In this document: piece by piece, positions 1 through 49,848 of the stretch
Position numbering within the stretch: the first letter of the stretch is position 1
How the letters are laid out: every line of letters begins with the position of its first letter
NCBI GenBank assembly: GCA_035235625.1
Contig: CP141144.1
Coordinates: 32,423,014-32,487,013, forward strand
DNA: 64,000 bases
Source of the DNA: Saururus chinensis
Lineage: Eukaryota; Streptophyta; Magnoliopsida; Piperales; Saururaceae
Direction of reading: 5' to 3'
Program-made: the position numbers and the translations under genes
Notes under the pieces: model-generated
Databases searched by the model: none
What the model saw: only the letters and a program-made list of their open reading frames with translations
Told to the model about the DNA's origin: nothing

Positions 1-582
1 AATACGAGTATTCTAAAATTAGTTTATTTGGAACCATACACTATTATGTTCATCGTCCCATACAAATTATTACACATTCTTTCCCATATTAAGTGCTCTA
101 AAATTAGTTTATTTTAAAAATAAATAAGAGTTTCAATTATATGTTTAAATAACTGTATATTTGTCGAGCACCATATATAAAAAAATAATTATGTAAATTA
201 CATGGACCTACCCGTATTCATCTCATATAACTTTAAAAATATCATTTTTTAATATAACAAAATATAATCTTTCAAAGAAATTTGTTTGAATTGTATTTTT
301 GTTTTTAAGAAAAAAATTTAAAAAATAAATTTTATTTAGAAAAAAATATTTTTGAAAATAAAAAACTAATTTTTAAAATAGAAAAATATTTTTTTTGATG
401 AAAAAATAAAATTATTTTTTAATACTGTATAGATACATATCAGCCGTATTGATACGGTACATCCGATACATATCATGATTCGGTGTGGGGGGTATACCAC
501 CACCGTACCCGTATTAGCCTCAACCGATACAAGTACATATCAGTCGATACGGTCCTGTATTGACTGATCTACCCTTTCAGGG

Positions 583-1125
583 TCTTTTTCGTAAGTGAAT
601 ACATGATCATAAATAGAAACTGAATTAGCTGAAATTTGTTGCACCATTTCCTCGCCTTCAATTCCTTCTTGGGCCTCATTCGTACCACCACGTAACACAT
701 CAATCTAGCAAAAACAAAAAGCTTTTTTTCAGAACAATGACACTACCGTGAGAAGAAATTCACCTTGAAAAACAAAATTCAATTAGTTTCATCTACATAA
801 GAAAAATTAAAATTCACAATGGAACTTCATCAACAATAAAATGCACCTTGACTCCAAAATCCAATGTCACGAGGACCGCATTTTAGGGCAAGGTCTCCGT
901 AGTGAGCTTCTGCTTGAGCGGATTCAGGCCCGGATGCTGTGGCGGCCTGGGCGATAGAGGACTCTGCGGCTTGGGCACCAGAGGCTTGGGAACGTCGACA
1001 AAAGTGTTGGGGTCCACATTCTCATATCTGAGCTTCTGGGAAGGGGCTTGCTTTTGCGGGGAAGGAGAGGCCTCCGACGGCGAGATCCCCCTCAAAACCC
1101 GGCTCCTCGGCAATGAACTCATCAT
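583..1125 (-). pseudogene. KIN-12 kinesin 5' fragment, copy 1 (exons 1-2)
   Basis: On the minus strand exon 1 (1125 to 847) encodes an N-terminus with SRVLRGISP, NVDPNTFVDVPKPLVPK and PLSPRPPQHPGLNPLKQKL. This is the proline-rich leader that precedes the motor domain in plant phragmoplast kinesins of the KIN-12 (PAKRP1/POK) group. Exon 1 ends in GVK followed by a GT donor. Exon 2 (691 to about 583) continues VVVRMRP, the first beta-strand of a kinesin motor, and runs to SANSVSIYDHVFTYEK. The motor domain is then cut off, long before the P-loop, so no ATPase could be made. This copy has a stop in exon 1 and an AC in place of the AG acceptor. The exon order and splice sites show a genomic copy, not a retrocopy. 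Confidence 0.8.
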
Positions 1126-1461
1126 GGCCGATTCGGATCCATACTAGATCTTGAACCAAAAATGTCATAGAGAAAGGAGGGATCAGAGGTGTAAACCCTA
1201 GAGTTTCAAAGCCTAGAGAGGAAATGGAGGGCGGAGGGTTCCAGTTCTCGCCGTTGCGAAGGGGGGGAAGGCAGGCAATTTTGAAATGAAATTCTAGAGG
1301 GATAAGAGAGATAGGGGAGAGAGAAATTGCAGAAGTAGTAGTCAATTTGGGTAAATTGCAATCACGCCCCCGATGTTTTAAAAATGGGGGTGTGTGGGGT
1401 ATATGACAATTTAGCCTTCATCGTACTTTGTGATTTGAATTTTGCTGTGGTGGTGATTTAG

Positions 1462-1658
1462 GGAACACTTTTTCTTGCTCTCTTTTAAAAATGAGGTCAG
1501 CATAAGTTACACATAGGAGTTATTTATCCATGAGATTAACACCATATACGTTGACACTAACATGAACTAGTGTGTGCACCGTCAATCATAAATATTAACA
1601 GCTCCTATGCGTAACTTACACTAGACTCATTGTAAGAGGGGAGCGTAAAAATTCTTCT
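1462..1658. mobile_element. Mutator-type MITE, 197 bp, in KIN-12 unit 1
   Basis: The element is flanked by identical 9-bp duplications GTGATTTAG (1453-1461 and 1659-1667). Its ends form an imperfect inverted repeat of about 50 bp, clearest at AAGTTACACATAGGAG against CTCCTATGCGTAACTT. It has no coding capacity. The 9-bp duplication points to mobilisation by Mutator-type transposase. The same insertion occurs at 3767 and 57592. Confidence 0.75.
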
Positions 1659-1667
1659 GTGATTTAG

Positions 1668-2330
1668 AATAAGTTCATCCCTAAACGCCAATGTAGCTAT
1701 ATAATATTTCTTTGTCTTATATATTACTTGTAAAAAATTTATAAAACTATAAAAAATTAAATTTATTTTGAATTAATTTTTAATTAGATAATTAACGCTC
1801 CATTTGTCTTATAGCTCCATTTGGTAAAAAATTATTATTATATATTAATAACTTCATTTTATTTAACTTAAATAATTAAATACTTAAATAACTTCATTTT
1901 ATAAGCTTATTTTTTTCTTTACCTTCTCTTAAATGTGAGTTTCACCATTTACTAAAAACAACTACTTGCTTCATCTTATATTAGTACTTAATATCTAATT
2001 TATATCATTTTAATCAAGATGGTAATTATTGCATGTAAAAGTAGTACAATCCGACTACTAACTCAGTAAGAAAAGTATGAGGAGATCCAAACAATAGAAA
2101 AGAGGAAAAGCGGTTTCACTAACATACACGCATGTAAGGCTGTATCAATACAAATGAGAGTATCGATGACTATGGATATGAGTACGGGCCGATGATTCGC
2201 TTTGTACGTGCCTGAACGGGCTTAAACCCTTTTATAAACATAAAAAATATTATAATTAATAATATATTATTATAAAACTTATTTTAGAGTATAATAAGAC
2301 CGTAAAATGCTGTATCAACCAATACGGGTA
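1668..2330. other. AT-rich part of the unit, no gene
   Basis: AT-rich spacer with no coding frame, RNA gene or terminal repeat that I can see. It is part of the tandem unit and recurs at 3973-4620, 55893-56500 and 57770-58380. Confidence 0.6.
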
Positions 2331-2854
2331 TTATAAAATTAGTTTATTTAGAACCATACACTATTATGTTCTTCGTCCCATACAAGTTATTGCTCATTCT
2401 TTCCCATATTAAGTGCTCTAAAATTAGTTTATTTTAAAAATAAATATGAGTCTAAATTATATGTTTAAATAAATGTATATTTGTGGAGCACTATATATAA
2501 AAAAAAAATTATGTAATTACATGGACCTACCCGTATTCATCTCATATAACTTTAAAAATATTATTTTTTCGTATAACAAAAATATAAACTTTCAAAGAAG
2601 TTGCGTATGAATTGTTTTTTTAAGAAAAATTTCAAAATTTTTTTCGAAAAAATTTATTTTTAAAATAGAAAATTAATTTTCTAATACTATATCGATAGAT
2701 ATCGGCCTTATCGATATGGTATGGCTGATGTGTATCATGATTCGGTATGGAGGGGCGTACCACCCCCCGTACCCATATCAGTCTCAACCAATATGAGTAC
2801 GTATCAGTCGATACGGTGCAATATTGACCGATATGGGCTTCTAGGGTTTTTTTT

Positions 2855-3433
2855 GAATGTGAAGACATGATCAAGAATAGAAACTGAATTAGCTGAATTT
2901 TTTTGCACTATTTCCTCGCCTTATTTCTCCTTCCTGGGCCTCATTCGTACCACCACCTAACACATCATTAAGTATAAAAAAACAAAAAAAGAATCGATCA
3001 TTTTCATCAATCTAGCAAAAACAAAAAGCTTTTTTTCATAACAACGACACTACCCCGAGAAGAAATTCTCCTTTAAAAACAAAATTCAATCAGTTTCATC
3101 TACATAAGAAAAATAAAAATTCACAACAGAACTTCATCAAGAATAAAATGCACCTTGACTCCAGAATCCATGGTCACGGGGACCCCTTTTCTCGGGCAGG
3201 GTCTCCATGGTGAGCTTCCGCTTGAGCGCATTCGGGCCCGGATGCTGGGGCGGCCTGGGCGGTAGACGGCTCCGTTCCTTTGGCACCAGAGGCTTGGGAA
3301 CATCGACAATAGTGTTGAGGTCAACATTTTCGAATCTGAGCTTACGGGAGGGGGCTTGCTTTTACGGGGAAGGAGAGGCCTCCGACAGCGAGATCCCCCT
3401 CAGAACCCGGCTCCTTGGCACTGAACTCTTCAT
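2855..3433 (-). pseudogene. KIN-12 kinesin 5' fragment, copy 2 (exons 1-2)
   Basis: Second copy. Exon 1 (3433 to 3154) begins MKSSVPRSRVLRGIS, and its 3' end reads DSGVK-like residues followed by a clean GT donor (AAG/GTGCAT). After an intron of about 200 bp, exon 2 (2957 to about 2855) starts GTGGTGGTACGAATGAGG, encoding the kinesin VVVRMR strand, directly after a TAG acceptor. Exon 1 contains a premature stop in the SPSP region and a frame slip near METLP; exon 2 has a frame slip after the VVVRMRP start. This copy gives the clearest view of the original exon-intron boundary. Confidence 0.8.
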
Positions 3434-3766
3434 GGCCGATTCGGATCCGTACTGGATCTTGAGCCAAAAATGTCATAGAGAAAGGAGGGATCAGAGGTGG
3501 AGACCCAAGAATTTCAAAGCCTAGAGAGAAAATCGGGGGCGGAGGGTTCCAGTTCTAGCCGTTGCAAAGGGTTACGTAGGCGATTTTGAAATGAAATTCC
3601 GGAGGGATGAGAGAGATAGGGGAGAGAGAAATTACAGAAGTAGTACTCATTTTGGGTAAATTGCAATCCCGCCCCCGATGTTTCGAAAATGGGGGTGTGT
3701 GGGGTATATGACGATTTTGCCTTCATGGTACTTTGTGATTTGAATTTTGCTGTGGTGGTAATTTAG

Positions 3767-3963
3767 GGAAGAGTTTTTCTTGCTCTCTTTTAACAAAGAG
3801 GTCAGCATAAGTTACACATAGGAGTTATTTGTCTATGAGATTAACACCATATATGTTGACGCTAACATGAACTAGTGTGTGCATTGTCAATCATAAATAT
3901 TAATAGCTCCCATGCGTAACTTACACTAGGCCCATTGTAAGAGGGGAGCGTAAAAATTCTTCT
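3767..3963. mobile_element. Mutator-type MITE, 197 bp, in KIN-12 unit 2
   Basis: Same element and same position in the unit as 1462-1658. The flanking 9-mers are GTAATTTAG (3758-3766) and GTGAATTAG (3964-3972), two decayed versions of the GTGATTTAG duplication in copy 1. The TIR ends GGAAGAGTTTTTC and, on the other strand, AGAAGAATTTTTAC can be aligned. Confidence 0.75.
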
Positions 3964-5132
3964 GTGAATTAGAATAAGTTCATCCCTAAATACCATTGCA
4001 GCTATATAATATTTCTTCATCTTATATATTACTTGTAAAAGATTTATAAAACTATAGAAAATTAAATTTATTTTCTCTTATTTTTTAATTAGATAATTAA
4101 TACTCCCTTTGTCTTATAGCACCATTTGGTAAAAAAATTTATTCTATTTTAATAACTTCATTTTATTTAACTTAAAAAATTAAATACTTAAAAAAAATAT
4201 TATAAGCTTATTTTGTTCTTTACCTTCTCTTAAATGTGAGTTTCACCATTCACTAAAAACAACTACTTGCTTCATCTTATATTAGTACTTAATATCTAAT
4301 TTTTATCATTTTTATCAAGATGGTAATCATTGCATGTGAAAGTAGTAAAATCCTACTACTAACTCAATGAGAAAAGTATGAGGAGATCTAAACAATAGAA
4401 AAGTGGAAAAGTGGGTTCACTCACATACATGCATGGAAGGCTATATCGATACATATGAGAGTATTGATGACTATGGATATGGGTACGCGCTAAAGATTCA
4501 CTTGGTACACACCTAAACGGGCGTAAACCCTTTTATAAACATAAAAAACTATTATAACTAATAATATATCATTATAAAACTTCTTTTAGAGAAGAATAAG
4601 ACCTTAAAATGCCGTATCAACCAATATGTGTATTCTAAAATTAGTTTATTTGGAACCATACACTATTATGTTCTCTGTCACATACAAATTATTGCTCATT
4701 CTTTCCCATATTAAGTGCTCTAAAATTAGTTTATTTTAGAAATAAATATGAGTCTAAATTATATGTTTAAATAAATGTATATTTGTGGAGCACTACATAG
4801 AAAAAAAATAATTATGTAAATTACATGGACCTACCCATATTCATCTCATTTAAATTTAAAAATATTATTTTTAATATAAGAAAAATATAAACTTTCAAAG
4901 AAGTTGGGTTTGAATTGTATTTTTGTTTTTAAGAAAAAAAATTAAAATTTTTTTTCAAAAGAAAATAATTTGTTTAAATAAAAAAGTAATTTTTAAAATA
5001 AAAAATTTAATTTTTTAATACTGTATCGATATGTATCGGTTGTATCGATATGGTATGGCTAATTACATATCTTGATTCGGTGTGGGGGGCGTACCACCCC
5101 CCGTACCCGTATCAGTCTCATCCAATACGGTG

Positions 5133-20498: not shown

Positions 20499-20712
20499 CT
20501 AAGACTTTGAGATATGTGATTCACTGATACTCAGATATCTCTGCACTTCACCCGCAGACATGTCCCCTATCTTCTTCCCCATCACCTCACTTATCAGATC
20601 CACTAGCCCCTCAACCTTCATGTAGTAAGCAGCGTTGACCATTTCAAAGAGTGTTTCCTTGTCCACGTCCATAAACTCCTCTTCCCACTCATTCAACTCC
20701 TTCCCAACTGCC
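20499..20712 (-). pseudogene. SKP1-like gene, C-terminal half (split by the MULE)
   Basis: On the minus strand the frame encodes WEEEFMDVDKETLFEMVNAA, then YYMKVEGLVDLI and a final helical stretch with VMGKKIGDM. This is the SKP1 C-terminal domain (compare canonical WDAEFVKVDQATLFDLI), which in SCF ubiquitin ligases binds the F-box. It ends LSISESHISKS and lacks the acidic tail and final WAFE of classical SKP1, so it is a divergent ASK-type paralogue or was already decaying. The N-terminal half lies at 42426-42667 on the same strand, beyond the 21.7-kb MULE. The two halves would total about 152 codons, close to the family's 155-170. The MULE boundary lies at the linker between the two SKP1 domains. 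Confidence 0.85.
20704..20712. repeat. Left 9-bp target site duplication of the MULE
   Basis: CCAACTGCC; the partner CCAGCTGCC lies at 42426-42434 (8 of 9 match). Nine bases is the Mutator superfamily's signature length. Confidence 0.85.
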
Positions 20713-20732
20713 GGCTTCGGATCGGCTGTGAT

Positions 20733-20760
20733 GCACTCCCACCAGGGTGGGTGGGAGTGC
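20733..20760. promoter_or_regulatory. Subterminal hairpin, left end of the MULE
   Basis: GCACTCCCACC and GGTGGGAGTGC form a perfect 11-bp stem around a 6-base loop, 20 bp from the element end. The right end has the same stem at 42378-42405. Such a site could be seen by transposase, but that role is inferred. Confidence 0.55.
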
Positions 20761-22484
20761 CGAATTAGGTGAAACCACGTCACCAGGGTGGCAGCAGGAG
20801 ACCGGGTTACTGACCCGGGTGACCGATGGCTTCGTGAACAGGACGACCGGGCGAAGGTATTAATCAGATCAGAACCGGGCGAAGGTATTAATCAGATCAG
20901 AACCGGGCGAAGGTATTAATCAGATCAAAACCGGGCCAGGCCAGTGGAGTGCATTTCACGAAACCCAGAACTCCCACTCTGATCTGCCCCGGTGATCCGA
21001 TCAGCACTCTGCGACTCACTCCGTCCCGCTGCTCCCGCTCCCACCCGGTGACCAGAGAAGCACCGATCGACGCCGGAGAAGAGTGGAGTGTTCTTCAAGG
21101 AAACCACTTTCAGAACTCCCGCTCCCACCCAACCCGGCGATCGGAAGAGCTCCCGCTCTGCTCTGCCCCGGTGATCCTTGGAGCACTCTGCAACTCACTC
21201 CGTCCCGCAGCTCCCGCTCCCACCTGGTAACCAGAGAAGCACCGATAGACGCCGGAGAAGAGTGGAGTGTTCTTGAAGGAACCCACTTTCAGAACTCCCG
21301 CTCCCACCCACCCCGGCGATCGGAAGAGCTCCCGCTCTGCAACTCACCCATCCCGGTGACCAGAGCAGCGGCGATCGACGCCGAAGAAGAGTGGTCAGGC
21401 AGCAACATTCTCAGAGGCAGCCGACACATAAAAAATGAAATAGGAGGTGCAGTCTGTTGGCACTCGCTCCTGCAAGTCGGTCTGATTCCCGTTCGATAGT
21501 AGAAAAAGCACGATCGTTGAGGTACAACAAACGAACTTGAGATACAGATGCGCTTATGTATTTTTTTTTTTGTCTCTATCCATCATTCCAGGGGGAAAAA
21601 AAGGAACTTCGATTGTTTTAACATTCCATTTTCTTTCACGGACAACTTCTGGGGTTTGATTGTTCTGCATTGTGTTTACTGCACGCCAAAGTGACTGCTC
21701 CATCCCAAATTCTTTAGGTTCCATTTTCTTTCACAGATATTTTCTGGGTTTTGAATGTTCCACATTGTGTTTACTGCAAGCTTCAGTCACTACTCCATCC
21801 CAGATTCTTTAAAGAATAGAAAATTGGATTTTTTGCTTTTTACCACATTTCCACCGACCTGCCTTTCGTTTGTTCCGCATTTTTTGATGGGCTTTCTTTC
21901 AGCTTACCACGCTTCTATATGTCGGAAAGAATAAACTGCATATGCTCTATGGTTATTTTTATTTTTGAATCTGAAGTCCTAGATCGACAAAGTGAGGCCT
22001 TTTCATCTCCTGCAAATCAAAATTATGTTGTCCAGAGCCTCTTCTCTGTTTTGCTTTTTCCAGGAAAAATTGTATCTTTTCCACTTTAGAATTTTTTGTT
22101 GCCTGTCTACTGATGAAACTGCATATGCTCTGTGTTTATTTTTATTTTTTAATCTGAAGTCCTAGATCGCCAAAGTGAGGCCTTTTCGTCTCCTGCAAAT
22201 CAAAATTATGTTATCCAGATCCTCTTCTCCATTTTGTTTTTTCCAGGAAAAATTGTATCTTTTCCATTGTGGAATTTTTTGTTGCCTGTCTACTGATGAA
22301 ACTGCATATGCTTTGTGTTTATTTTTATTTTTGAATCTGAATTCCTAGATCGCCAAAGTGAGGCCTTTTCGCCTCCTGCAAATCAAAATTATGTTGTCCA
22401 GAGCCTTTTCTCCGTTTTGCTTTTTCCAGGAAAAATAGTATCTTTTCCACTTTGGATTTTTTTGTTGCCTATCTGCTGATGAAC

Positions 22485-23325
22485 CTTGGAGCAATATTAT
22501 TCCAACTTGGAGCAATATTGCTCCAACCTGAAATGTTCAATGATTTTGATGCATTTAATTGCTTACCAATTATTTTGATGCCTTCAATTCATATAAGCCT
22601 TGCAGCAATATTGTTGTAGGGTTGGAGCAATATTGCTCCAACCTTGAGCAATATTGCATTAGCGTTGGAGCAATATTGCTCCAACTTGGAGCAATATTGC
22701 ATCAACCTTGGAGCAATATTCTTCCAACTTGGAGCAATATTGCATCAACCTTGTAGCAATATTGCTCCAACCTTGGAGCAATATTGTTCCAACTTGGAGC
22801 AATATTACATCAACATTGGAGCAATATTGCTCCAACCTTGGACAATATAGCATCAATATTGGGGCAATATTGCTCCAACATTGGGGCAATATAGCATCAA
22901 CATTGGGGCAATATTGCTCCAACCTGAAACTGTTCATTGATTTTGATGCCTTTAAATGTTTACTGATGATTTTGATGCCTTTAATGTTCGATTATTTTGA
23001 TGCCTTCAATTTATATAAGCCTTGCAGCAATATTGTTGTAGGGTTTGAGCAATATTGATTCAACTTGGAGCAATATTGCTCCAACCTTGGAGCAATATTG
23101 TTCCAACTTGGAGCAATATTGCACCAACATTGGAGCAATATTGCTCCAACCTTTGAGCAATATTGCTCCAACCTGATAGGTTTGATGATTTTGATGCCTT
23201 TAATTTATTTAAGTCTTGGAGCAATATTGCTACACTGTAGGAGCAATATTACTACACCTTAGGATCAATATTGCTCCAACCTTGCAACAATATTGATGCA
23301 AGGATTGAGCAATATTGCTACAATT
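22485..23325. repeat. Palindrome array in the left TIR (TTGGAGCAATATTGCTCCAA)
   Basis: About twenty to thirty copies, often imperfect, of a 20-bp self-complementary sequence (TTGGAGCAATATTGCTCCAA), joined by short spacers such as CATC or CTT. Two short unrelated inserts with GATTTTGATGCCTTTAAT interrupt it. Any reading frame through it is a by-product of the repeat. Confidence 0.9.
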
Positions 23326-23441: not shown

Positions 23442-26400
23442 ATGGCAACTAAATCAAGTAGGTTTTTTTTAATCCCTACGTTTAAAATGTTTGTGGATGT
23501 TGTTGATGTACTAATATTAATGCTTATGCATTAGGATTATTGCTTTTGTTATAGCAATATTTTAAATGTTAATCCTATTATCGATAATTGAATTATATGC
23601 GACATTTTAAAGACATTATTGCTACAACATTTCTGCATTATTGGTAATTTTATAGCACACTACCTAAAAATGTTGTAGCATTATTTCAGCTATACTCATA
23701 CCATCTTGAATATGATGCCAGTGTATATTTTAAATATTGCTATGTTATTTACGGGGTTATATTCAACACTTTTATTATATGTCTAGGTACCTTCTTACTA
23801 ATACTTAGATATGTATTGATGCAGAAGTTCTTGAATCAAAGAAGAGGGGCTCAAACCTTGGAGGAGGATCAGGAAGAAATAGGCGAGAGTCATTGAAAGT
23901 CCCTTGTTTCCCCTCGGGACTAGCAAAGTCAGTGAGCATATTGTCTACCTTCCCAGAGGTGAAGACTCTTGTTAGCCAAACCCCCTTCATCCAATTGTTA
24001 GACGCCAGAAACATCGTTTGTCAGGCGTCACTTTTTGAAGTAATTTTGGGTTATTGGACTGAGGCCCAACCTGGGGTCACATTCAAAGGATGTAGAGTGG
24101 ACTTCCTTGTGGAGGATGTGGCCCTCATTGCGGCCTGAAGAAGGGGGGCAATCGGGTGGTCTTCGCCCAAGAAAGGGAGGAGAGGGGTGCGTATTGTAAG
24201 CGTCGTTTTGGGAAGAAGCAGGTTACAAGATCTGAAATTGAGAAGACCATGGACGTTTTAACTGCCACGACCGACCCTACATCGGTGGAGGATTGTGCAA
24301 GAACGATCATCTTGCACATTTTCTCATGCCTCCTATTTCCTCATACCCACACTGTGGTCAAGAACGCGTTAATTGACCTGGTGGAAGACATGGGCAGCCT
24401 CCATCAATATGACTGGCCTCAAGCTATTTATGAATTTTTAGTAGTCTCAGCCTCAACTCTCCATAGGAAGATTATGTCGAAGGAGGCAGGCAAGTCTGAG
24501 GGCTATGGATCATTGATTGGAGCAGCATTTGTCCTACAGGTATTTTATACTTGCTACATAATTGTATTTACATGATTATATAGGAGTTACAAAATGCTAA
24601 TTTTTATCTTTTATATGTTATAGGTTTGGGTGTTTGAGCATTTTAAGATGTTCATATCCCCTGTGCCGCATAAGCTGCCCCGATTTGCGAAGTGGCCAAA
24701 TTGTGGCATGCTAAAGGGGGAAAAAGAGGCTAAGCACCATAGGTCGGTGGGCAAATATGCACAAATGTTTAAATTTCTGAGACCACAAGAGGTAAGTAAT
24801 TGTGACTATTTTTTATATTGAAATGTTTGAGTTTTTAAAATCTGTTCAACTTTTTAGTTTATTGAACTTTGCATGTTAACTAATTGTGCATATGTTGACC
24901 ACAGGTTCTATCTGTGTTGGTTCCTGTTGCGAATGAGGCAAATCTCATTGAAGGGGCAGGAAAGGCCTTAAAAAAAAGGAAGGTAGGAATGGAAGGTGGG
25001 GCGCTGGTGAAGGCGAGTGGGGGAGGAATGTTGGTCCTGAAGTCGGCACTAGATAATATGGCCTCTGCACTTGGAGTTGTGCATACTGCCATGCATATAT
25101 TGGAGGAGGAGGGCTACCCTACTGACCATCTACATGGTGTCATGGACACCATTTCAGAAAATTTTTTGACATTTAAGAACATGGCCAATCATTTGGTTAA
25201 GAGGCCATCAAAGAGGATGAGGCATACCTCTCCTGTAGCAGCGGACGAGGATGAAGGTGGCAAAGCTGACGAGGAAGATATTGGAGATAATAATGATGAT
25301 AATGAAGAGGAGGGTGAGGAGGAGGGAGGGGAAGAGGAGGGTGAGGAGGAGGGAGGGGAAGAGGGGGAAGTGGTGGAGGAAGAGGGGGAGAGAAGGAGGA
25401 GAGGAGGCCGAGGGGGGAGAAGGAGGAGAGGAGGCCGAGGGGGGAGAGGAGGTGGGAGAGGATGGGGGAGAGGAGGAAGAGGGGGGAGAGGAGGTGGGAA
25501 AGGATGGGGGAGAGGAGGAAGAGGGGGGAGAGGAGGTGGGAAAGGATGAAGAGGTGGGAGAGGATGGGGGAGTGACACGAGAGGAGGGTAGAGTGGATGA
25601 GGGAGAGGGGGGAGAGGAGGAAGAGGGGGGAGAGGATGGGGGAGAGGCAGGAGAGGAGGGGAGAGTGGATGAGGGAGAGGGGAGAGAGGCGGATGAGGAG
25701 GAGGGGGAGCGGAGCAAGGGGAGGATAAGAGAGAGGAGGGTCCAGTTGGGGAGTGCCGAAAGAATGATGAGGAGGGAGATGGGGAGGGAGATAAAGAGGG
25801 TCTCACTTCGAAAAGACCTCTACGGATAAAATATAAAAGTAAGAAGTATGGGACCCCTTTTACTCAGGAGACAAAGAGGAAGAGGAGGGAGAAGAAGGAA
25901 ATGACTGTGGAGGGGGCTGCAACCATTTTAGTTTCTTGCGAAGCCTCAGCCAAGCAAGCATCCCGTACCTTCCCTTGCCGTCCAATGAAGATTAACTTAT
26001 GCAGTCCTCTATCTAATTTGTGTACGCGAGATCAAGACACTATTCAAAAATTCATTACAGATAGGAGCCATTCTGTGGTGGGTGTCGGTGTCGCAGACAA
26101 TGACTTAGTGGATATGTTGAAGGCGGAGTACATCTCGTCTAATGTAAGACTACAATTTCTATCTCTTTAAATCTTAAGTATTCAATATTGATTTTATACT
26201 AAGTGTATGCTTCAATGTATGTAGGTAATAGATGCTTACATGTATATGCTACAACAAAGAGCATCTAGATCTACTGGAAATGCCTTCCCCAAATGCCACT
26301 TTGGGACCTTTGCGTTGCAATTTTATTTCACCAAGGTATGGTCCAAAGCCTAATATATTTATGTATTGGGTTAAGTTAGGATATGGACTAAGTCAAATCC

Positions 26401-27057
26401 AATGGGAATTGCAATTGAAGGTTATGGCAGAGGACGCATTGGAGGACCTCGCAACCACATGTTTTGGAGCGGATAAAGAATGTCCTGATTTCATCTTTAT
26501 ACCAATGTGTGACAATGCACATTTTTACTTATTGGTCATAGATGTTGACAAGACTGAAGTGAAATGGTTCGATTCCATGCCTGGGTATGGCCATAAGAAA
26601 CGACATCCTAATGTGAAAAAATTGGTGAGTTAATGTATGATTCATTGAAACCAATTTTTCTTTAAACAATTGCTTTGAAACTAATTTGGCAAATATGTGA
26701 ATAATAGATGGATAGCATTGGAGTATTTCTTGAGGAGCACCTTAAGGTACCTAATGCTAAAAAGTGGAAGATCGTTAGTAAGAAGGGACCATACCAATCA
26801 AACGGGGTTGATTGTGGGTTCTTCCTCATGCGTACTGTATATTGCATTAGTTCTGGTTTGCCAGTTGATTATACTCAGGTATAATGGGGTTAACAAGATA
26901 TATGGGCCAATTGCATATATTTTTTTATTTCTTCTTTATTCCTTCAGTCAAAATGGGATACTAACAAATTTATTCGTTTCAACTTTTTTAGGAAGATATC
27001 TCTCAGCGTTTGAGACTTGGAATGGCTGCAGAGATCCTAAGAGGCTCTACTGATTGA
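23442..27057 (+). CDS. Ulp1-type cysteine protease gene of the MULE
   Basis: Likely SUMO-protease-like (peptidase C48) protein encoded by the element. Exons that join in phase at GT-AG sites: 23442-23457, 23825-24539, 24624-24791, 24905-26143, 26225-26335, 26421-26624, 26708-26878, 26992-27057. The first half (TFPEVKTLVSQTPF, CQASLFEVILGYW, GVTFKGCRVDFLVEDVALI) resembles the domain that precedes Ulp1 in other plant MULEs, possibly DUF1985. A long Glu/Gly tract follows (25260-25830). The C-terminal protease core keeps the catalytic His (NAHFYLLVID, about 26519), Asp (WFDSMPG, about 26570), Gln and Cys (YQSNGVDCGFF, Cys about 26811). One base is missing near 24135 and the reading frame slips within the Glu/Gly tract, so the gene is slightly damaged or misread. 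The promoter is expected in the left TIR. Confidence 0.75.
25260..25830 (+). repeat. GA-rich low-complexity tract within the Ulp1 gene
   Basis: Almost pure purine sequence of GAGGAGGGAG-like units encoding Glu/Gly-rich repeats in one frame and Arg/Gly-rich repeats in another. The opposite strand gives long Pro/Ser frames that are artefacts. Confidence 0.85.
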
Positions 27058-31707: not shown

Positions 31708-33085
31708 AACGTGAAATTAGTTGCTGAGTGCTTGTTTCTCGGCATGGACGTTTTTTGGTGAAGCAATTCTAGTGGGAGCGGTTTGTGTGCAGATTGTCAC
31801 ATGTACAGGACTAAATCTATTTTGTGGATGAGTTTCAATTCTTTTTTGCTTCTACCTAACTCTTACCTCTTATTACGTTGGTCAATCAGAGTGCCCTGCT
31901 ATCTACACTTTCTTTGTTCTGTTGAAGGCGAGCTGCTATCTCACATTTCAGGCTGAGTTTCAAACGCCCAACTTCAAATCTTTTTTCTCCGCAATCACTA
32001 AATGTGTATGGTCAAATATCTTAATATGTTTTTTGTATGTATTATTATTCCTGTGTAATTAAATGTCTAACTCATAGAGAAAATGAATTATATGCGAAAA
32101 GTGAGCAATTGCTTCACTAATGTCCAATATTTACATAATGCTTATTGTACAAGCAGGGATTCTTCAATAGATGGTCGTAAATTTCGATTCTTGGTTTGCA
32201 GGCAGCAGCGATTGATTTCATTTGTAATATCCGGACAGTTAATTATGTAAGCGTGCTGGTTTTGCCTCTTTCATCCTTTCTTATAGGGACATTCGTGATA
32301 GAAACATGGCGGTGATCATTGTTCGGTTATTTCGTCTCAAAGAGAAGAACGCATGGATGATGTGTTTATGAGTGGACTCCACGCCATGGCCTGGACACAT
32401 GGCTGTTATAGCCTTGCAGGACTTCCATGCTATATGCTAAGCCTTAAGGAACCAAACCTAGTCCTCTACATTAGAAGAGTTTTCATTTTCTACTTCTCAT
32501 TGACAATGATCCCAACCTAAACTATGCATAGGAGATCGATAGTGTATATGTTAGGGCATGTTAGCGTCTGTATTACTATGAGCGTCGTTAATCTTATATA
32601 TCAACTGCTTTCGTATGTAGCTTATGCTGGGTTTATTGTTATAGGGGAGCATAAATTGATGTAAATTTGCTTATGCTTATTTTGGTGTGATAAAAAAAAA
32701 GATTGGTGTGCACAATCACCCTTTCTGAATTTTGAATGCATGAAGGGCATCCCCACCCTGCATGGCCTCTGTTTGGAAGTGCTTGTATGATTTTTATTTT
32801 TGTGTTTTTGCCAAGAATATTAGCAGCACAAAAGTAGAAAAAGGGTGCTAATAACCATACATTGCTACACCAAAACTTGTCTAACAAAACATTATATTTG
32901 GTCTTGATTTAAGAATCCAAAATAAATATACATTTTATTAGACAAATTCTCGTATAGAAAAATCATTATCATGTAGGAGGCCTCTTATTGCACTAACACA
33001 TTGTTCGGTAGGAAGGAACACACGCATCTTATAAGATTTGGTAATTTTTGTTTTCTAATTGTCTTATTTTTGTTTTCTAAGGACA
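31708..33085. other. Non-coding interior of the MULE
   Basis: AT-rich, with no gene recognised. The left end may be 3' flank of the captured CTR1-like gene. Confidence 0.45.
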
Positions 33086-33925
33086 TTGCTACTGTTAGGG
33101 CAATATCGCCCCAACATTTGAGCAATATCGCTCCAACATTAAAGCAATATCGCTCAAATGTTGGAGCAATATCGCTCCAAAATTGCTACAATATCGCTTC
33201 AATGTTGGAGCAATATCGCTCCAACATTGGTGCAATATCGCTCCAACATTGGTGCAATATCGCTCCAACATTGGAGCAATATCGCTCTAACATTAAAGCA
33301 ATATCGCTCAAATGTTGGAGCAATATCGCTCCAAAATTGCTACAATATCGCTTCAATGTTGAAGCAATATCGCTCCAACATTGGTGCAATATAGCTCCAA
33401 CATTCCTACTGTTGGAGCAATATCGCTCCAACATTAAAGCAATATCGCTCAAATGTTGGAGCAATATCGCTCCAAAATTGCTACACTATCGCTTCAATGT
33501 TGGAGCAATATCGCTCCAACATTGGTGCAATATCGCTCCAATGTCGCTCCAACATTGAACATTAGAGCAATATTGCTCCAATGTTAGAGCAATATTGCAC
33601 CAACATTGGTGCAATATCGCTCCAACAGTAGCAATGTTGTAGCAATATCGCTCCAACATTGGTGCAATATCTCTCGAATGTTGGAGCAATATTGCTCCAA
33701 CATTGCTACTGTTGGAGCAATATCGCTCCAACATTGAACATTAGAGCAATATCGCTCCAACATTGCTACTGTTGTTGCAATATCACTCCAACATTGAACA
33801 TTAGAGCAATATCGCGCCAATGTTGGAGCAATATCGCTCCAACATTGGAGCGATATTGCACCAATGTTGGAGCGATATTGCACCAATGTTGGAGCTATAT
33901 TGCTCCAATGTTGGTGCGATATTGC
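33086..33925. repeat. Third, internal palindrome array (GAGCAATATCGCTCC variant)
   Basis: About 35 copies of a near-palindrome, TTGGAGCAATATCGCTCCAA, mostly spaced by CATT, CATTGGTG or TGCTAC. It differs from the TIR arrays by one base in the core (ATCG for ATTG), which breaks perfect symmetry. Near its right end the units switch to the complementary core CGATATTG. The array is outside both TIRs. Confidence 0.9.
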
Positions 33926-34159
33926 AGAAAGTTTAGCATCTCTTTTGGATGAACATTGATGTTATTCACTATAAATTTGTTTCATATTAAGTGTTTCCAA
34001 GTGATAATTTCTCTTAATGGAAATTTTAAATTACATTTCAAAACTTGAGTTCGTTAATGCTTTGATGATCACGCTTAATATATTAATGCATATGAAACTT
34101 ACTAGGTTCCAACTACTCTTTTAGTATTTACTTCATATTCATTCCCTCTAACAAACATA

Positions 34160-34689: not shown

Positions 34690-35780
34690 GCAGTCCCATC
34701 TTAGGCAAGCCCCACCCATCCAAACAATAAGAATGAGGTCAACACATTTTATTTGGGATCATGTAATATGTGCAGCTTTAGCCATACTGCATCAAGGAGG
34801 ATGTTTGAAGCTTTAACATCGCGATATATCACTTGACATTCTGAATCGTGCAATAATGTGAGTTCTCATGCAGCACCAATTGCAACTTTGATTCTTATAT
34901 CCCAAGAAAGTGGCTGAGCTCCTCCTGAAAAAGAGGTCCATTTTCTATGAGATGTAATATAACTAAAAAGAAATCAACAACTACTAAATAGATATCTTTA
35001 CGTATTAACAGGAGTCACAACAAGTACACAATCATGTCCGTACACCACAAACAAAGGCACTTCATCATACATGAATTATATGAAATCTACGTCTTTAAAT
35101 GTTGAAAGTGTGGGATTTTTTTTACTTATGACAAACGTTTCTCCCGAAGATGCACAAGGAGCATGATTTCATTTCCAAGTAACATAAAACAAAGTAGTTC
35201 TAATTTACGTTTAAATAGGTGGTTCTCTAGACTACCTTTTGGCAAGTACTCATAGACCAGTAATCGGTAGTCACCCTCAGAGCAATAACCAATGAGCTTA
35301 CCTAGATTTGGATAGTGAAGTTGACTGAGGTACTGCACAATTGTCTGTCCACATCAGTTGTGAAACCAAATTAATAACACCAATAAAACTGAGAAACTTA
35401 ATTAAACAAATTCTATAAGAGAAGAAAGGCTTACCAACCACTCTTTGTGGCCTTGAAAACCATATGCTTTAAGATTCTTCACAGCAACAACCGTTCCAGA
35501 TCCAGGCTTTAAAGCAGTTATTGTTTGCTCATCGACCCATCCCTTGAAAACATAACCGAATCCTCCTTCTCCAAGGAGAGATTCTGTATGGAAGTTTCTA
35601 GTCGCATTTCTGAGCTGATTGAAAGGGAAGTTCTTCAAATATGGGGATGACAAGATTTCGCACTCAATTTGTGGTGTTGGAGCATTAGAACTACCACTAT
35701 TCTCGCTGTAAGATGGCAGAGTCAAACTTGATACACTTGTACATATTTTTCTCTTGCTATTGGTTTTTGAAGCCTCTGAT
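34690..35780 (-). pseudogene. Captured receptor-like cytoplasmic kinase VII (PBL-type) fragment
   Basis: Minus-strand exons in PBL order: 35725 to about 35430 (FPFNQLRNATRNFHTESLLG, EGGFGYVFKGWVDE, GTVVAVKNLKAYGFQGHKEW), about 35335-35215 ([40 protein letters not shown]) and about 34925-34775 (PLSWDIRIKVAIGAA, then VIYRDVKASNILLD). The last holds the catalytic loop with RD in YRDVK. PBL proteins act below immune receptors at the plasma membrane. The end of the kinase domain is missing and there is a stop after VAIGAA. It lies beside the other kinase fragment on the same strand. Confidence 0.85.
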
Positions 35781-37504
35781 GCAGAGATATAATGGAGTTA
35801 CAAAAAGGATACAATGTTATACACATTTTGTCTCCTGATTCTTTAAAACTACAACCAGTATGAAGGAAGAATAAAACCTAAGAATTGAAGAATATTTTAT
35901 AGCAAGTGTGAACAGAGCCTGCAAATGCTAACAGGAAAAAGGGAAAGGAGAACATTTTACAGCAAAGTACTATATTCCCCCTAATTAAATAGTCCATGGA
36001 TAACCAAATGCTATATGTCCTAGAAATCCGGAGATAGAAAATCATAACTTTAATATTGATGTTGCCGAGTTAATATGGCCTTAATTATGCAACGTAAAAA
36101 TCACCTCAAATCATATACTAACTTGGTTGCAAAATATAACAGAAAAAACTTTGTGGTCTACACCTCGAAATATCTCACTTCTAATCCCACAGCCCAATTA
36201 AAAAGAGCAAATTAATATAACACGAAAATAAGCATATTTAGATCATTTGTCCCAACTAAATCTATACAACGAAAAACTTAAAAAAAAACCAAGCACTTTC
36301 ACTTTTCCAAAACATTAACTAAAACATACATACCCTTGTTCCTAACTAAAAAATTAACTAAAACATAGTGCAAATCCCAATGTTCCTAAGTTTAACAAGT
36401 GAACATCAGTATAAACATAAATGGTGGATCACACAAAAATACCTAACAAGGTTTCACAAATCTCTGGAATATTGCACAGCTGATGGAATAAGAACTCCTT
36501 CAAAGTATCTGTTTATCTTTCATATGCAGGTAAGCAATAGTTTAAAAAACTATATCATCATTGCAATATTGCTACCTGTAACATAGTTGCCAAATTAGTT
36601 ACATGTCTACCTATAAAGCTTAAAATATTATGGTACAATTCCAATAATCAAAGTTCCATCATCAAGTTTATGATTGCCAAACATTGATAGGAACTATATT
36701 ATGAACAATCAAGCCTACTGACAGTCATTGTTCTTACAGGTCTGACCACAAAACGGTCATTCTTATTACGATATACAAAAGCAAACGACAATTTAGCATC
36801 TCTTCTTCTTGCTTGAGGATCAACCTCTTTGACCGAAAAAAGTTTATAAATGTGTACAGTTCATGTCCAGGAAAAAAAATATTACAAAAGACTTCAAGAG
36901 GGGTAATATAAAATTTAATATACCATATCTATCAATTCATGAATTGTAGCATCCTTCCATGTTTAAATTTATACTTCATCCTTGGGTTCCTTATCTCTCA
37001 TTGCAAAATCTTCATTGGAATGGTGCCCACCAATCTACAATAAATAGAAAGCATTTAGACAAAACAACCAAATGACAAAAGGAGAGCTACATAATATGAT
37101 TAGTGTGACACTCATCGAAGTTGGATTCATCACCATGTTTGAGAATATCTACAAAATAACCTAGCTTTCTTTTTTTTACAAACTCGATTCCAAAGACTAG
37201 ATTCAATACAAATTGTTACATAGTAGCATCATGCAGGAAAAATTACCTCATCTATTTTCCAAATCGTAGAAATTGTCTTCAACCTTCCAAGATTACATAT
37301 AACATGACTTAACAAAATGTTACAAAATGTTATCAACCTTGTGATTCATATAGCATCACTTAGCAAAATGGCAAAAAATATTTTCAACCTCCTGCATAAA
37401 AAACCACTTAAAATTGTAATCAGTAAAAGCTTATAAAAACTAATTTTATACTTCATGTTCAATTAATAACGAGTGATTAATATCTATTTTTACCTGAATT
37501 GGCT
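35781..37504. other. Non-coding interior of the MULE, left of the transposase gene
   Basis: AT-rich, with no coding exon recognised. It probably includes the 3' UTR of the leftward-reading transposase gene. Confidence 0.45.
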
Positions 37505-40079
37505 TCAGCTAAACCTCAGTTGAGGTTTAGGAATCTGCAAGTGGCTTGATTCTATGGGAGACATACTGACTTGCTGACGCACAATGTAAATAAATTTACT
37601 AAATCATATTTTGCTAAAACTATCAAATAAAATGCTTTAGTTAAAGCAAATGATTGAACTTACCTCAAGTAAGTTGGAAAAACTTTCGATACCTCTAGGA
37701 GTATCTTCGCAACAAAATGAATCCTATAATACATGCCAATAATTTAGAATTATATAGAATACAAAAAGACATGTGATAGTATCTATAACATAGTGAATAA
37801 ATATAATTACTTGAGGTGGCTGAAACATTGGGATATGAGGTCGAAGCTGCAATTGAGGCAATTGAGTACATGAGGCGGGAGACTGCTGAGTGCTTGGACT
37901 TGATTGCTTTTTTTTCTTGTGATGTCTCTCAAGGCAACCCCTCTTCCTCGCAGCTGCTTTACCATCACGAGCACGTTTCTCCCGTATTTTTATCCCTGAT
38001 GCAGGTACCTCAATATTTTGGTCATTGATATCCTTTTGTGCGAGGGTCTCATGCATATTTGCAGCCTTATCTTGAAGCTCATTTTGATGAGTTTGCTTCA
38101 ATTCCTCATCTATTACTTGGGACATAATTTTAGCTTGAATCATTGTTGCCTTATATGCCGCTTCAGATTCAGCACCCCGTCCTGCTATGGCAATCAATAT
38201 ACGTCACACCTCCATGAAGCGTGTTCCCATAGCCTTATGTGGGTCAGTGTCAGTAGTTGTTGAAGTTGAATTCATTATGACCTGAACTTTTGCATCTCTT
38301 GACCACCGTCGATTATGTATTGGGGAGGGAGCATCTTCACACATCTATTATCAAACACTTTCAATGAATGACTGCATAGTATTCTGCAAATTCAAACTTC
38401 TTACAACTGCAAACAATTGTGTGATCTTGTAAATCAAATGTGACATTGTGTTGACCATGCTTTCCTACAACTTTGAACTCCATTGTTGCTCCTTTCTCTA
38501 TATATTCATGAATTTCACAATCTAAGTGATCTTGATACTCACTTAAAAATATTTCAAAAGCAGCTGGGGTATAAATTTTTGCCGCTTGTGCTAACATTTT
38601 AGAGAACATGAGTAACCTAGGAGTTCTATCCAACATTTTAAAATCAGCTTGTAACTCTTGAAAACGTCGATCATCTACTAATCTATCAAAATGATGAAGA
38701 AACTCCATAGGATTTATTTTAGAATTTACATACCTCCTCAAAATACTGTTCATAGATTCACTGCGCTGTGTGGACTTCATTCCCGCACAAAAATGATGTC
38801 GACCATAAGCCATAGCCCATTTTTCCTTCTCACGAAACAACTGAAGCAACCACGGATGATCTTGAACTGTATATTTCTCAATCATCCTATTCCATCCCTC
38901 TAAGAACTCCTCCTCTGTTTCAAACTCAAATATGCATTGTTTTAGATCTCTTGCAAATGACTGAAACTTTTCAAAAATATGGCTGAGATGTTTAGCTGCA
39001 TTCTGATATATATGTCATATACATAAGCGATGATGGGTTTCCGGCATAACAACTCGAATAGCTTTAGCCATTGCTGCACATTGGTCTGTAATGATAGTAA
39101 CCAGTTTCTTACCAGACATTGCAACAAGATAAGTCTCAAGTAACCAAATAAAAGAATCAGCAGTCTCATCATATAACAAGGCAGCCCCAAATATGGTATT
39201 TTGGCGATGATGATTTACACCAGTGAACAATGCACACGGCCAATTTATGTTAGTAGTTCTATACGTGGTATCAAAGCTGATCACATCCCCAAAATTCTCA
39301 TAGTCTACTATCATCCTCGCATCTGCCCAAAAGATATTAGTTATCAAACTATCTTCATTCAACTGCATTGAGTAGAAGAAAGATGGATTATCCTTTTGTT
39401 TTCTTTTGAAGTATTCTAACAAAGCCGCTGCTTCTCCTTTTTCCATCACCTTTTGACGCTTAGTACGTAAATAATTTTTCAGATCCACTGCAAGAAACCC
39501 TACATTTTGTTGACCACCAGCTTGGCTTGCTTGCAAAACTATAGAATCTTTAGGTGGAATGCCTACACTTGCCGCTGAATCAGCCAACATAGATTGAGAC
39601 ATACTCATGCGTCTATGTGAATTCAAAAATGGAACCTTTGTTGGGGTCACAACCATGTGATTATGACTTGGCTCAAATTCTACAATTTTATACATGTCAC
39701 CTACAAGCTTGATAACCATCATAGCTAAACAGCCCGTTCTTGTTTCTGGACGAGGATTCTTCACCACTCTATTTCTTTTATCTTCAACTCTTTTGCCTTC
39801 TTTTGAACAACAAAATCTTCGCATTCTAATTATGCCATCTTTTTTCCATTTCCATCCTCTTCGAATGCTAAATCCAATTGTTGCACTATAATCATTGTAG
39901 AATTTGTAAGCCATCTCCTCTGTTGCAAACTCCATTCCAATATTTGGTACTCTTTCTTCTACTTCATGAAAATCTAATTTCCGACAAGCAGAGTTTACTT
40001 GGCTTCCTATTTGAATGTCATTTTGTTCATCACCTTCATTATGCCCATCACATCGAACACTTGACCCCTCACTTGCCAT
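37505..40079 (-). pseudogene. FAR1-type MULE transposase gene (lightly damaged)
   Basis: Starts MASEGSS (40079), or a few codons earlier at MDLCRAM. Domains in order: FAR1 DNA-binding region (EMAYKFYNDYSATIGFSIRR, RTGCLAMMVIKL; about 39940-39680), MULE transposase core (DVISFDTTYRTT near 39280 and VTIITDQCAAMAKAI near 39090, with the likely catalytic Asp residues, then TQRSESMNSILRRYV near 38760), SWIM finger (CSCKKFEFA, then LCSHSLKVFDN; about 38420-38340) and a basic C-terminus (RARDGKAAARKRGC). Two short last exons join in phase (37723-37664 and 37573-37505). I see about four lesions: a stop where Trp is expected after HRLCI (near 39016), two frame slips around the SWIM motif, and a stop near 38204. 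Related to FAR1/FHY3 and Jittery. Confidence 0.85.
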
Positions 40080-40179
40080 TGCCCTACACAAGTCCATAAA
40101 AATATTATGAAGAAAAGAAGGGAATATATTCAAAATTTTGAAACTAAGACATTTTATTAGTGTGTAACAAAATACTATA

Positions 40180-40980
40180 TGGCTATATTGTAGCAATAAT
40201 GCTCCAATAGTGTAGCAATATTGCTGCAATGTTAGAGCAATATTGCTGCAAAGTTGGAGCAATATTGCACCAACAGTGTAGCAATATTGCTCCAAGGTTG
40301 GAGCAATATTGCCCCAATGTTGATGCTATATTGCTTCAAGGTTGGAACAATATTGCTCCAACAATGGAGCAATATTGCTCTAATGTTGATGCAATATTGC
40401 TCCAATGTTGATGTAATATTGCTCCAACCCTACAACAATTTTGCTCCAAGACATATAAATTAAAGGCATCAAAATCATAGAACATTTCAAGTTGGAGCAA
40501 TATTGCCCCAATGTTGATGCTATATTGCCCCAATGTTGGAGCAATATTGCCCCAATGTTGATGCTATATTGTCCAAGGTTGGAGCAATATTGCTCCAACC
40601 TTGGAGCAATATTGCTCCAATGTTGATGTAATATTGCTCCAAGTTGGAACAATATTGCTCCAAGGTTGGAGCAATATTGCTACAAGGTTGATGCAATATT
40701 GCTCCAAGTTGGAAGAATATTGCTCCAAGGTTGATGCAATATTGCTCCAAGTTGGAGCAATATTGCTCCAATGCTAATGCAATATTGCTCAAGGTTGGAG
40801 CAATATTGCTCCAACCCTACAACAATATTGCTGCAAGGCTTATATGAATTGAAGGCATCAAAATAATCGGTAAGCAATTAAATGCATCAAAATCATTGAA
40901 CATTTTAGGTTGGAGCAATATTGCTCCAATGTTGATGCAATATTGCTCCAAGTTGGAACAATATTGCTCCAAGGTTCATC
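40180..40980. repeat. Palindrome array in the right TIR
   Basis: Inverted counterpart of the array at 22485-23325, with the same perfect palindrome core (TTGGAGCAATATTGCTCCAA), the same GATGCAATATTGC spacers and the same short inserts. Confidence 0.9.
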
Positions 40981-42377
40981 AGCAGATAGGCAACAAAAAA
41001 ATCCAAAGTGGAAAAGATACTATTTTTCCTGGAAAAAGCAAAACGGAGAAAAGGCTCTGGAAACATAATTTTGATTTGCAGGAGGCAAAAAGGCCTCACT
41101 TTGGCGATCTAGGAATTCAGATACAAAAATAAAAATAAACACAAAGCATATGCAGTTTCATCAGTAGACAGGCAACAAAAAATTCCACAGTGGAAAAGAT
41201 ACAATTTTTCCTGAAAAAAACAAAACGGAGAAGAGGATCTGGATAACATAATTTTGATTTGCAGGAGACGAAAAGGCCTCACTTTGGCGATCTAGGACTT
41301 CAGATTAAAAAATAAAAATAAACACAGAGCATATGCAGTTTCATCAGTAGACAGGCAACAAAAAATTTTAAAGTGGAAAAGATATAATTTTTCCTGGAAA
41401 AAGCAAAACAGAGAAGAGGCTCTGGACAACATAATTTTGATTTGCAGGAGATGAAAAGGCCTCACTTTGTCGATCTAGGACTTCAGATTCAAAAATAAAA
41501 ATAACCACAGAGCATATGCAGTTTATTCTCTCCGACATATAGAAGCGTGGTAAGCTGAAAGAAAGCCCATCAAAAAATGCGGAACAAACGAAATGCAGGT
41601 CGGTGGAAATGTGGTAAAAAGCAAAAAATCCAATTTTCTATTCTTTAAAGAATCTGGGATGGAGTAGTGACTGAAGCTTGCAATAAACACAATGTGGAAC
41701 ATTCAAAACCCAGAAAATATCTGTGAAAGAAAATGGAACCTAAAGAATTTGGGATGGAACAGTCACTTTGGCACGCAGTAAACACAATGCAGAACAATCA
41801 AACCCCAGAAGTTGTCCGTGAAAGAAAATGGAATGTTAAAACAATCGAAGTTCCTTTTTTTCCCCCTGGAATGACGGATAGAGACAAAAAAAAAATACAT
41901 AAGCGCATCTGCATCTCAAGTTCGTTTGTTGTGCCTCAACGATCGTGCTTTTTCGACTGTCGAACGGGAATCAGACCGACTTGCAGGAGCGAGCGCCAAC
42001 AGACTGCACCTCCTATTTCATTTTTTATGTGTCGGCTGCCTCTGAGAATGTTGTTGCCTGACCACTCTTCTTCGGCGTCGATCGCCGCTGCTCTGGTCAC
42101 CGGGATGGGTGAGTTGCAGAGCGGGAGCTCTTCTGATCGCCGCGGGGCAGATCAGAGCGGGAGTTCTGGGTTTCGTGAAATGCACTCCACTGGCCTGGCC
42201 CGGTTTTGATCTGATTAATACCTTCGCCTGGTTCTGATCTGATTAATACCTTCGCCCGGTTCTGATCTGATTAATACTTTCGCCCGGTCGTCCTGTTCAC
42301 GAAGCCATCGGTCACCCGGGTCAACGAGTAACCCGGTCTCCTGCTGCCACCCTGGTGACGTGGTTTCACCTGATTCG

Positions 42378-42405
42378 GCACTCCCACCCACCCCGGTGGG
42401 AGTGC
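42378..42405. promoter_or_regulatory. Subterminal hairpin, right end of the MULE
   Basis: GCACTCCCACC and GGTGGGAGTGC form the same 11-bp stem as at the left end, 20 bp from the element end. Confidence 0.55.
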
Positions 42406-42425
42406 ATCACAGCCGATCCGAAGCC

Positions 42426-43028: not shown

Positions 43029-43400
43029 TGTAAGCAATTTTATTAGTCACATATGTGGTCCCACATGATAATTAATAAATAATAATAAGTATATCTATCT
43101 TGTTTACGATTGGTCTTACAAAAGTGAACGTTGTAACCGCTTGATGGAAGCAGTTACGTGAAGATAAAAAATAGAGGAGACGGTCTTCTCTCTGCCCAAC
43201 GAAAAACCACGACAGTGATGATCCATCTCAAGTGAAAATCATCAGAACGAAAGGGCTAAGGGAGAGAAACCTATCCTAAGAAGATTCGTCGATTCGGAAT
43301 GGAACCAGGTACGCTATTTCTTTTGAAAATACAGTAAATAGTAATAAAGAAATTAATTTCTATGATATATGATTCATTTACAAAAAATTTAATGCTTACA
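43029..43400 (+). repeat. 5' LTR of the copia element
   Basis: Begins TGTAAGCA and ends TGCTTACA, perfect inverted ends. It aligns along its length with 49440-49798, apart from one 11-12-base gap near the left end. Confidence 0.92.
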
Positions 43401-43401
43401 A

Positions 43402-43415
43402 TTGGTATCGGAGCC
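43402..43415 (+). other. Primer binding site of the copia element
   Basis: TTGGTATCGGAGCC, one mismatch from the usual initiator-Met tRNA site TGGTATCAGAGC. Confidence 0.8.
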
Positions 43416-48990: not shown

Positions 48991-49439
48991 AAAGACCTTT
49001 ATTGAATATGCTAATAGAATGGGTCTTGAAAATAATTCATGATTGTAAACATTTATTTTGTGATGAATTATGCTTTATTTATGATGATGATGCTCTATTA
49101 CATTTTGATATCAATAAAGTGTTTCTAATTTTCCTGTCTTAGTTATTATGTGCATCGATGTGAATGAATATATATTTGTGACAGGATTAGTCTCTATTAG
49201 TAGAGACATTATGTGAACTCTTATGATTTCCTCTTTTGAACACTATATTGAGCAGATTTTTTAATATTGTGGTACATAGAAGGGACCATGTCATTTAAGG
49301 ACATAGAACTGCCATGACTCATATTATAAATTTGTTTAATGATAGTATTATGTAACCAATTTGATTAGATAATTGTGTATACCTTATGTTGTCTTGTTAT
49401 ACTATCATGATTAATTATCATTCGGACCAAGTGGGAGAA

Positions 49440-49798: not shown

Positions 49799-49848
49799 AT
49801 AACAACAACATAATAAGCAGCAAGCTTGCCAGCAGTGACGGAGAGATT

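Follow-up and report, generated by a model that had tools for sequence, protein, structure and literature searches.

Truncated, intron-bearing and pseudogenic pieces of host genes lie within repeat DNA in the Pack-MULEs, Pack-CACTA elements and Helitrons of plants, according to one account (PMC13317346). Satellites that arose from transposon or foldback pieces, such as Tetris of Drosophila virilis, consist of tandem units with palindromic, transposon-like DNA, as described in PMC4079207. For HvARM1 of the Triticeae, which duplicates a host gene in truncated form, neofunctionalisation of the partial copy is reported (PMC6092874), and the Kinesin-14 Kindr of maize Ab10, a multiplied kinesin sequence, is reported to be a drive gene present in 8 copies (PMC11549084).

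The locus described here lies in a window of 64,000 nucleotides of Saururus chinensis DNA (the whole stretch that was analysed; contig CP141144.1, positions 32,423,014 to 32,487,013) and contains what appears to be the start of a KIN-12 kinesin gene, repeated in tandem. Like the plant captures, it holds a truncated, intron-bearing host gene piece in repeat DNA and is pseudogenic, but it is an array without proven transposon ends, and its copies in this window are tandem, not dispersed. It shares with the Tetris-type satellites the tandem units with palindromic, transposon-like DNA, whereas its unit includes a host-gene start and the part of the array that can be seen is short, with units that are not homogenised. 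In contrast to HvARM1, it consists of several broken tandem copies, and unlike Kindr its fragments come from a KIN-12 gene and lack nearly the whole motor. Among the literature matches listed, no title or opening of an abstract describes an array of KIN-12 gene starts. We consider it probable that the locus is a small, old and inactive tandem array of a composite repeat, in which the 5' end of a KIN-12 gene was joined to transposon-like DNA, multiplied and left to decay.

Comparison of the window with itself revealed two blocks, 1-5127 and 55904-60588, built of head-to-tail copies of a 2302-bp unit; together they amount to about 4.3 unit lengths. The blocks are separated by 50,776 bases of other DNA (50.8 kb), in agreement with the distance of some 50 kb given by an earlier, sequence-only reading of this DNA; the span 583-3433, which that reading gave as the extent of the feature, takes in only the first two copies. 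The second unit, U2, served as the reference on which unit phases are numbered (Table 1). U1 can be aligned with it from end to end (2369 columns, gaps included), and all unit-length matches have the same orientation. The repetition is not due to chance, since none of 20 single-base shuffles of the unit exceeded 34.6 bits when compared with the window. Calling the array satellite-like, as had been done, is apt for its head-to-tail tandem arrangement and generous for its length and for the 10.7-18.5% by which units differ from one another (18 of 20 pairs), a spread that shows no homogenisation in the window. The two pairs left out of this range, U4-U6 (25.1%) and U4-U7 (51.9%), are dominated by flanks beyond the array, and the distances for U3, U4 and U7 generally take in short flanks of this kind and are slightly inflated. 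Neither true end of the array falls within the window; because the window opens within a unit, the array may extend further to the left. Dispersed copies of the unit were not found in the window, except for part of a MITE-like insert. Exact patterns derived from the unit had no matches in collections of bacterial and archaeal genomes and of viral contigs, and the unit itself had none in a plasmid collection, results that say little about plants.

On the minus strand, the order within the unit is leader, ATG, exon 1 (93 codons), intron 1 and about 34 codons of exon 2, after which non-kinesin DNA follows. The truncated exon 2 is found in five copies (U1, U2, U5, U6 and U7), and its pieces start within 13 bases of 583, 2855, 56910, 58912 and 60440, the positions at which five minus-strand copies had been proposed; these copies are real. 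The consensus of this piece reads VVVRMRP...SILDHVFTF, with coding ending at the V-F-T-F codons, and the edge at which it ends is common to all five copies, as had also been noticed before; in U5 a deletion of two bases lies next to this edge. Four of the five (U1, U2, U5 and U6) also carry intron 1, together with exon 1 in full or in part. The further claim that every copy contains exon 2, the intron and exon 1 holds for U1, U2 and U6; in U5 exon 1 lacks its 5' part, and U7 retains only exon 2 and the 3' part of the intron because an LTR begins at 60589. Intron 1, which is bounded by GT...AG in the consensus and measures 155-197 bp, is kept in all four copies that span it, which indicates copying at the DNA level and rules out a processed retrocopy. 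The acceptor-side motif is recognizable in all five copies, with the AG itself in four (all but U1), the donor-side motif in all four copies that reach that point, with the GT itself in three (all but U6), and the start codon in all three that keep that stretch (U1, U2 and U6). KIN-12 coding is disabled in each of the five copies, none of which amounts to a functional coding gene.

That the fragment is the start of a class II KIN-12 (PAKRP1-like) gene is well supported by sequence comparison, and the sequence-only reading had named the same kinesin family; the assignment leans on a query that is presumed to be the N-terminus of Arabidopsis PAKRP1 and was searched by tblastn in the window only, with filters off. 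This query matched exon 1 of four copies, with E values down to 7e-11, and the exon 2 piece of U2 and U5, but that of U1 and U6 only at E 0.09 and 0.17 (Table 1); the exon 2 of U7 gave no tblastn row, but its DNA matches that of U5 over 168 columns. Of five peptides compared with the presumed PAKRP1 query, four reached scores not attained in 2000 shuffles, and the score of the fifth, which has 23 residues, was reached by 7 of 2000. Against a segment of KIF5A, in contrast, all five did no better than shuffles (163 to 1599 of 2000 as high), so that only the PAKRP1-type query is matched specifically. The N-terminal extension of the PAKRP1 type, which leads into GVKVIVRMxP, has its counterpart in the fragment, as judged by tblastn with this query. 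The 87-residue motor part of the query has as its best PDB match KIF15, a kinesin-12 (E 2.5e-18), and its N-terminal extension, from which the strongest matches come, is presumed to be that of PAKRP1. Pfam returned no hit for the 133-aa joined consensus or for the 31-aa exon 2, only about 34 motor residues being present, and PDB searches with the short pieces likewise returned no kinesin; a six-row profile compared with the PDB gave a single row, an unrelated methyltransferase subunit (E 0.35). In the kinesin-12 proteins of plants the motor is preceded by a long disordered N-terminal region, and the class II members PAKRP1 and PAKRP1L regulate phragmoplast organisation during male sporogenesis (PMC6747500); exon 1 would encode the disordered N-terminal region known from these proteins.

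Table 1. Features of the array and of the element that interrupts it, in window coordinates (identities are those of DNA; E values are from tblastn with the presumed PAKRP1 query)
Feature	Position	Strand	Remarks
U1, full-length unit	1-2320	+	85.3% to U2
U2, full-length unit	2321-4622	+	reference unit; from self-comparison
U3, partial unit, end of left block	4623-5127	+	85.2% to U2 phase 1-473
U4, tail only (from phase 1687), start of right block	55904-56510	+	90.7% to U2
U5, unit with internal deletions	56511-58389	+	from self-comparison
U6, unit without phase 1402-2183	58390-59886	+	from self-comparison
U7, unit cut off by LTR	59887-60588	+	83.5% to U2; TGTTGTGC at 60589
U1 exon 2 piece	591-691	-	one-base deletion; acceptor AG lost, reads TTAC; E 0.09
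U1 exon 1	847-1125	-	in-frame stop; E 4e-8
U2 exon 2 piece	2855-2956	-	in-frame stop; E 0.001
U2 exon 1	3154-3433	-	in-frame stop and one-base insertion; E 2e-7
U5 exon 2 piece	56923-57022	-	two-base deletion; E 0.002
U5 exon 1, 3' part only	57200-57381	-	5' part deleted; in-frame stop; upper edge approximate; E 3e-5
U6 exon 2 piece	58916-59016	-	one-base deletion; E 0.17
U6 exon 1, open	59184-59462	-	ORF from 59462, 103 aa; donor GT changed to AT; E 7e-11
U7 exon 2 piece, without exon 1	60448-60548	-	in-frame stops and one-base deletion; 88.7% to U5
U2 leader and upstream DNA	3434-3757	-	MSA-like box TGCAACGGCTA at 3566-3556; upstream limit is the MITE-like insert
GATACG-rich palindromic stretch bordering the exon 2 truncation (U2 copy)	2681-2845		most variable part of the unit, mean difference 24.5%
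MITE-like insertion, 197 bp (U1 copy)	1462-1658		imperfect terminal inverted repeats
5' LTR of gypsy-like element in U7 intron 1	60589-60928	+	TGTTGTGC...GCACAACA, then TTGGTATCGAAGC

The remainder of the unit resembles transposon-derived DNA. A first GATACG-rich zone borders the truncated exon 2 and is followed by AT-rich DNA, while upstream of the leader come the MITE-like insert, a further AT-rich segment and another GATACG-rich zone; 26 of the 28 GATACG or CGTATC words of the window fall inside the array. Relative to U2, the end of the first zone is shorter by about 20 bases in U6 and by 40 in U5, length differences of the sort that exchange between short repeats could produce. The MITE-like insert of U1 is bounded by the 9-bp flanks GTGATTTAG at 1453-1461 and 1659-1667, the only good 9-bp duplication observed in the unit. 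Outside the array, part of this insert occurs again in reverse at 51638-51741, within a second partial copy at 51638-51835 that has its own imperfect palindrome at 51661-51835.

Between 123 and 133 bp upstream of the ATG, an MSA-like box with the core AACGG is present in all three copies that keep the stretch (U1, U2 and U6; U5 lacks it) and agrees at 9, 10 and 9 of 11 positions, respectively, with the MSA consensus. The window holds 12 sites with an AACGG core that fit at 9/11 positions or better, nine of them elsewhere, including one on the other strand of U6 exon 1, so that an MSA-like site alone proves little. The cytokinesis genes rice MAP65-3.1 and Arabidopsis MAP65-3 have an MSA element near the transcription start, and such elements are bound by MYB3R factors (PMC9643714); the predicted box would therefore fit a genuine KIN-12 promoter.

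The pattern of divergence within the unit bears on whether the array is dead. Mean differences between copies are lowest in the AT-rich segment B (6.7%), the MITE (8.1%) and the AT-rich segment A (11.6%), followed by exon 2 (11.8%), the leader (12.6%), the second GATACG zone (14.0%) and exon 1 (14.2%), and they are highest in intron 1 (17.5%) and the first GATACG zone. The exons are not the best conserved region of the unit, which supports the reading of the array as dead; that exon 2 differs less than intron 1 is a weak hint against it. With the GATACG zones left out, CpG transitions affect 71 of 372 cells (19.1%), as compared with 110 of 2318 (4.7%) at other C or G positions, and this fourfold rate reads as the trace of a presumed past cytosine methylation. 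The observed/expected ratio of CpG is 0.89 and 1.01 in the two blocks versus 0.47 in the DNA between them, so the composition of the array makes it rich in CpG, and its CpG decay is incomplete.

Raw dN/dS is 0.33-0.47 among three exon-1 pairs. For both exons together it is 0.47, against a mean of 0.71 (s.d. 0.16) in neutral simulations, 70 of 2000 of which were as low; the corresponding counts are 79 of 2000 for exon 1 including part of U5, 527 of 2000 for exon 2 alone, and 26 and 11 of 1000 for exon 1 of three copies under two rate sets. The simulations used context-dependent (CpG) rates and assumed a star tree with the consensus as ancestor. Since the neutral expectation for exon 1 with CpG rates is 0.66-0.77, part of the dN/dS deficit is a CpG effect, and the slightly low values hint only weakly that coding constraint may have acted during some of the history.

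The window as a whole is rich in transposon pieces, and the kinds of genes and transposons in it suggest plant nuclear DNA. Downstream of the LTR that cuts U7, Pfam recognizes a reverse transcriptase piece at 62841-63236, and the DNA between the blocks contains a Mutator-like element, a copia-like element and gypsy-like pieces. Inverted repeats at 20713-23256 and 40189-42425, identical to 89.7% and 91.0% in two pieces, enclose a stretch of about 22 kb with a FAR1/MULE transposase frame at 39018-40325 on the minus strand and a piece of an Ulp1-type peptidase at 26232-26630 on the plus strand; the stretch is probably an Ulp1-carrying Mutator-like element. Arrays of 22-bp palindromic repeats of the TTGGAGCAATATTGCTCCAA type occur in it at 22479-23323, 33085-33934 and 40172-40979. 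An SKP1-like fragment on the minus strand at 20502-20891 (PDB SKP1, E 3.5e-7), which lies at the edge of this stretch and overlaps the start of the inverted repeat, is possibly a captured host gene piece. The copia-like element, classed as such by its Pfam domains, spans 43058-49800; its direct repeats of 345 bp share 93% identity, and a tandem duplication of 225 bp lies inside it at 48298-48745. The minus strand at 35405-35797 may encode the N-terminal part of a protein kinase, the Pfam kinase match lying below the cut-off (E 0.027).

The common edge, the retained intron and the head-to-tail order suggest a single fusion, the product of which was then duplicated in tandem at the DNA level. 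In the history that we favour, the 5' end of a KIN-12 gene, a piece that begins in upstream DNA, takes in exon 1 and intron 1 and ends within exon 2, would have become joined to AT-rich DNA with GATACG palindromes. Unequal exchange, suggested by the shared truncation edge and the head-to-tail order, would then have multiplied the 2.3-kb unit; it probably took place between the GATACG-rich stretches, where exchange would account both for the common stop and for the varying length of the stretch. The copies have since diverged to the extent observed, losing reading frames, splice sites or exons and gaining CpG transitions. A gypsy-like element cut U7 at 60589, and the array is broken between 5127 and 55904, by loss of DNA or by separate growth of the two blocks. 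The unit phases on the two sides of the break, 473 at the end of the left block and 1687 at the beginning of the right one, do not meet. A clean insertion splitting a single array is thereby ruled out, and deletion and separate growth are both compatible with these phases. The quartet of the four fullest copies favours U1 and U2 versus U5 and U6 (21 sites against 10 and 6), and the other seven of the eight quartets tested are weakly resolved or unresolved. The open exon 1 of U6 and the incomplete CpG decay also count against a dead array.

Other origins can be weighed against the same features. Pack-MULEs prefer the 5' ends of genes, and the hallmarks of Helitrons are a 5' TC, a 3' hairpin plus CTRR and insertion at AT. 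Capture of the kinesin start by a Pack-type DNA transposon or a Helitron (transduplication), followed by duplication in tandem, would suit the first of these habits and the transposon-like palindromes and AT-rich DNA of the unit, and the taking of gene fragments by transposable elements is well documented in plants (PMC13317346). Clean terminal inverted repeats with a target-site duplication were not seen round the kinesin piece anywhere in the window, and the scarcity of dispersed unit sequence there (part of the MITE-like insert) also argues against capture, which we regard as rather unlikely. Partial tandem duplication beside a living parent would explain the missing flanking duplications, as well as the common stop at a GATACG-rich edge, if unequal recombination took place between two GATACG-rich elements, one in exon 2 and the other upstream of the gene, with the remainder of the KIN-12 gene lying just to the left of position 1, a direction in which the array may continue, given that position 1 falls within a unit. 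A search of the window with the 49 residues that come next in the presumed PAKRP1 motor domain, as far as the P-loop and including it, yielded nothing better than a chance-level row (E 2.1), and we judge this arrangement unlikely. Tandem arrays are often misassembled, but the differences between these units and their private deletions and insertions are far above sequencing error, which makes an assembly artefact extremely improbable.

It is also very unlikely, in our estimate, that the array has a function, whether as a source of small RNAs against the parent kinesin, as a set of decoy promoters or as the template for an N-terminal peptide. The sequence-only reading had proposed, as speculation, that promoter copies might be spread by the array or that RNAs directed at the parent might arise from it. 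Such roles would be in keeping with the AACGG box upstream of the ATG in every copy that keeps the stretch, with the one open exon 1 frame (103 aa, in U6), with the slightly low dN/dS, and with captured gene sequences reported as siRNA reservoirs in maize (PMC13317346). The disabled coding of all five copies weighs against them, and together with it the CpG decay, which is typical of methylated repeats, speaks against active promoters; the single orientation of the unit-length matches provides no ready hairpin, and nine of the 12 sites of MSA quality in the window lie elsewhere than upstream of these ATGs. More improbable still is a trans-acting regulator, whose mitosis-type promoters and N-terminal pieces would titrate MYB3R or feed small RNAs against the parent in a contest between a repeat and a gene of cell division, with a history partly under coding constraint. 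Functional ideas of this sort have little in their favour. As a decayed composite repeat, the array most likely does nothing now.

Truncated gene starts carried on repeats are one way in which genomes make pseudogenes and sources of small RNAs, and a tandem array of the 5' end of one cytokinesis gene offers a clear case for asking whether repeats silence or spare the parent. If it is inert, as we believe, the array would be a record of how pieces of host genes enter repeat arrays, and a trap for gene annotation.
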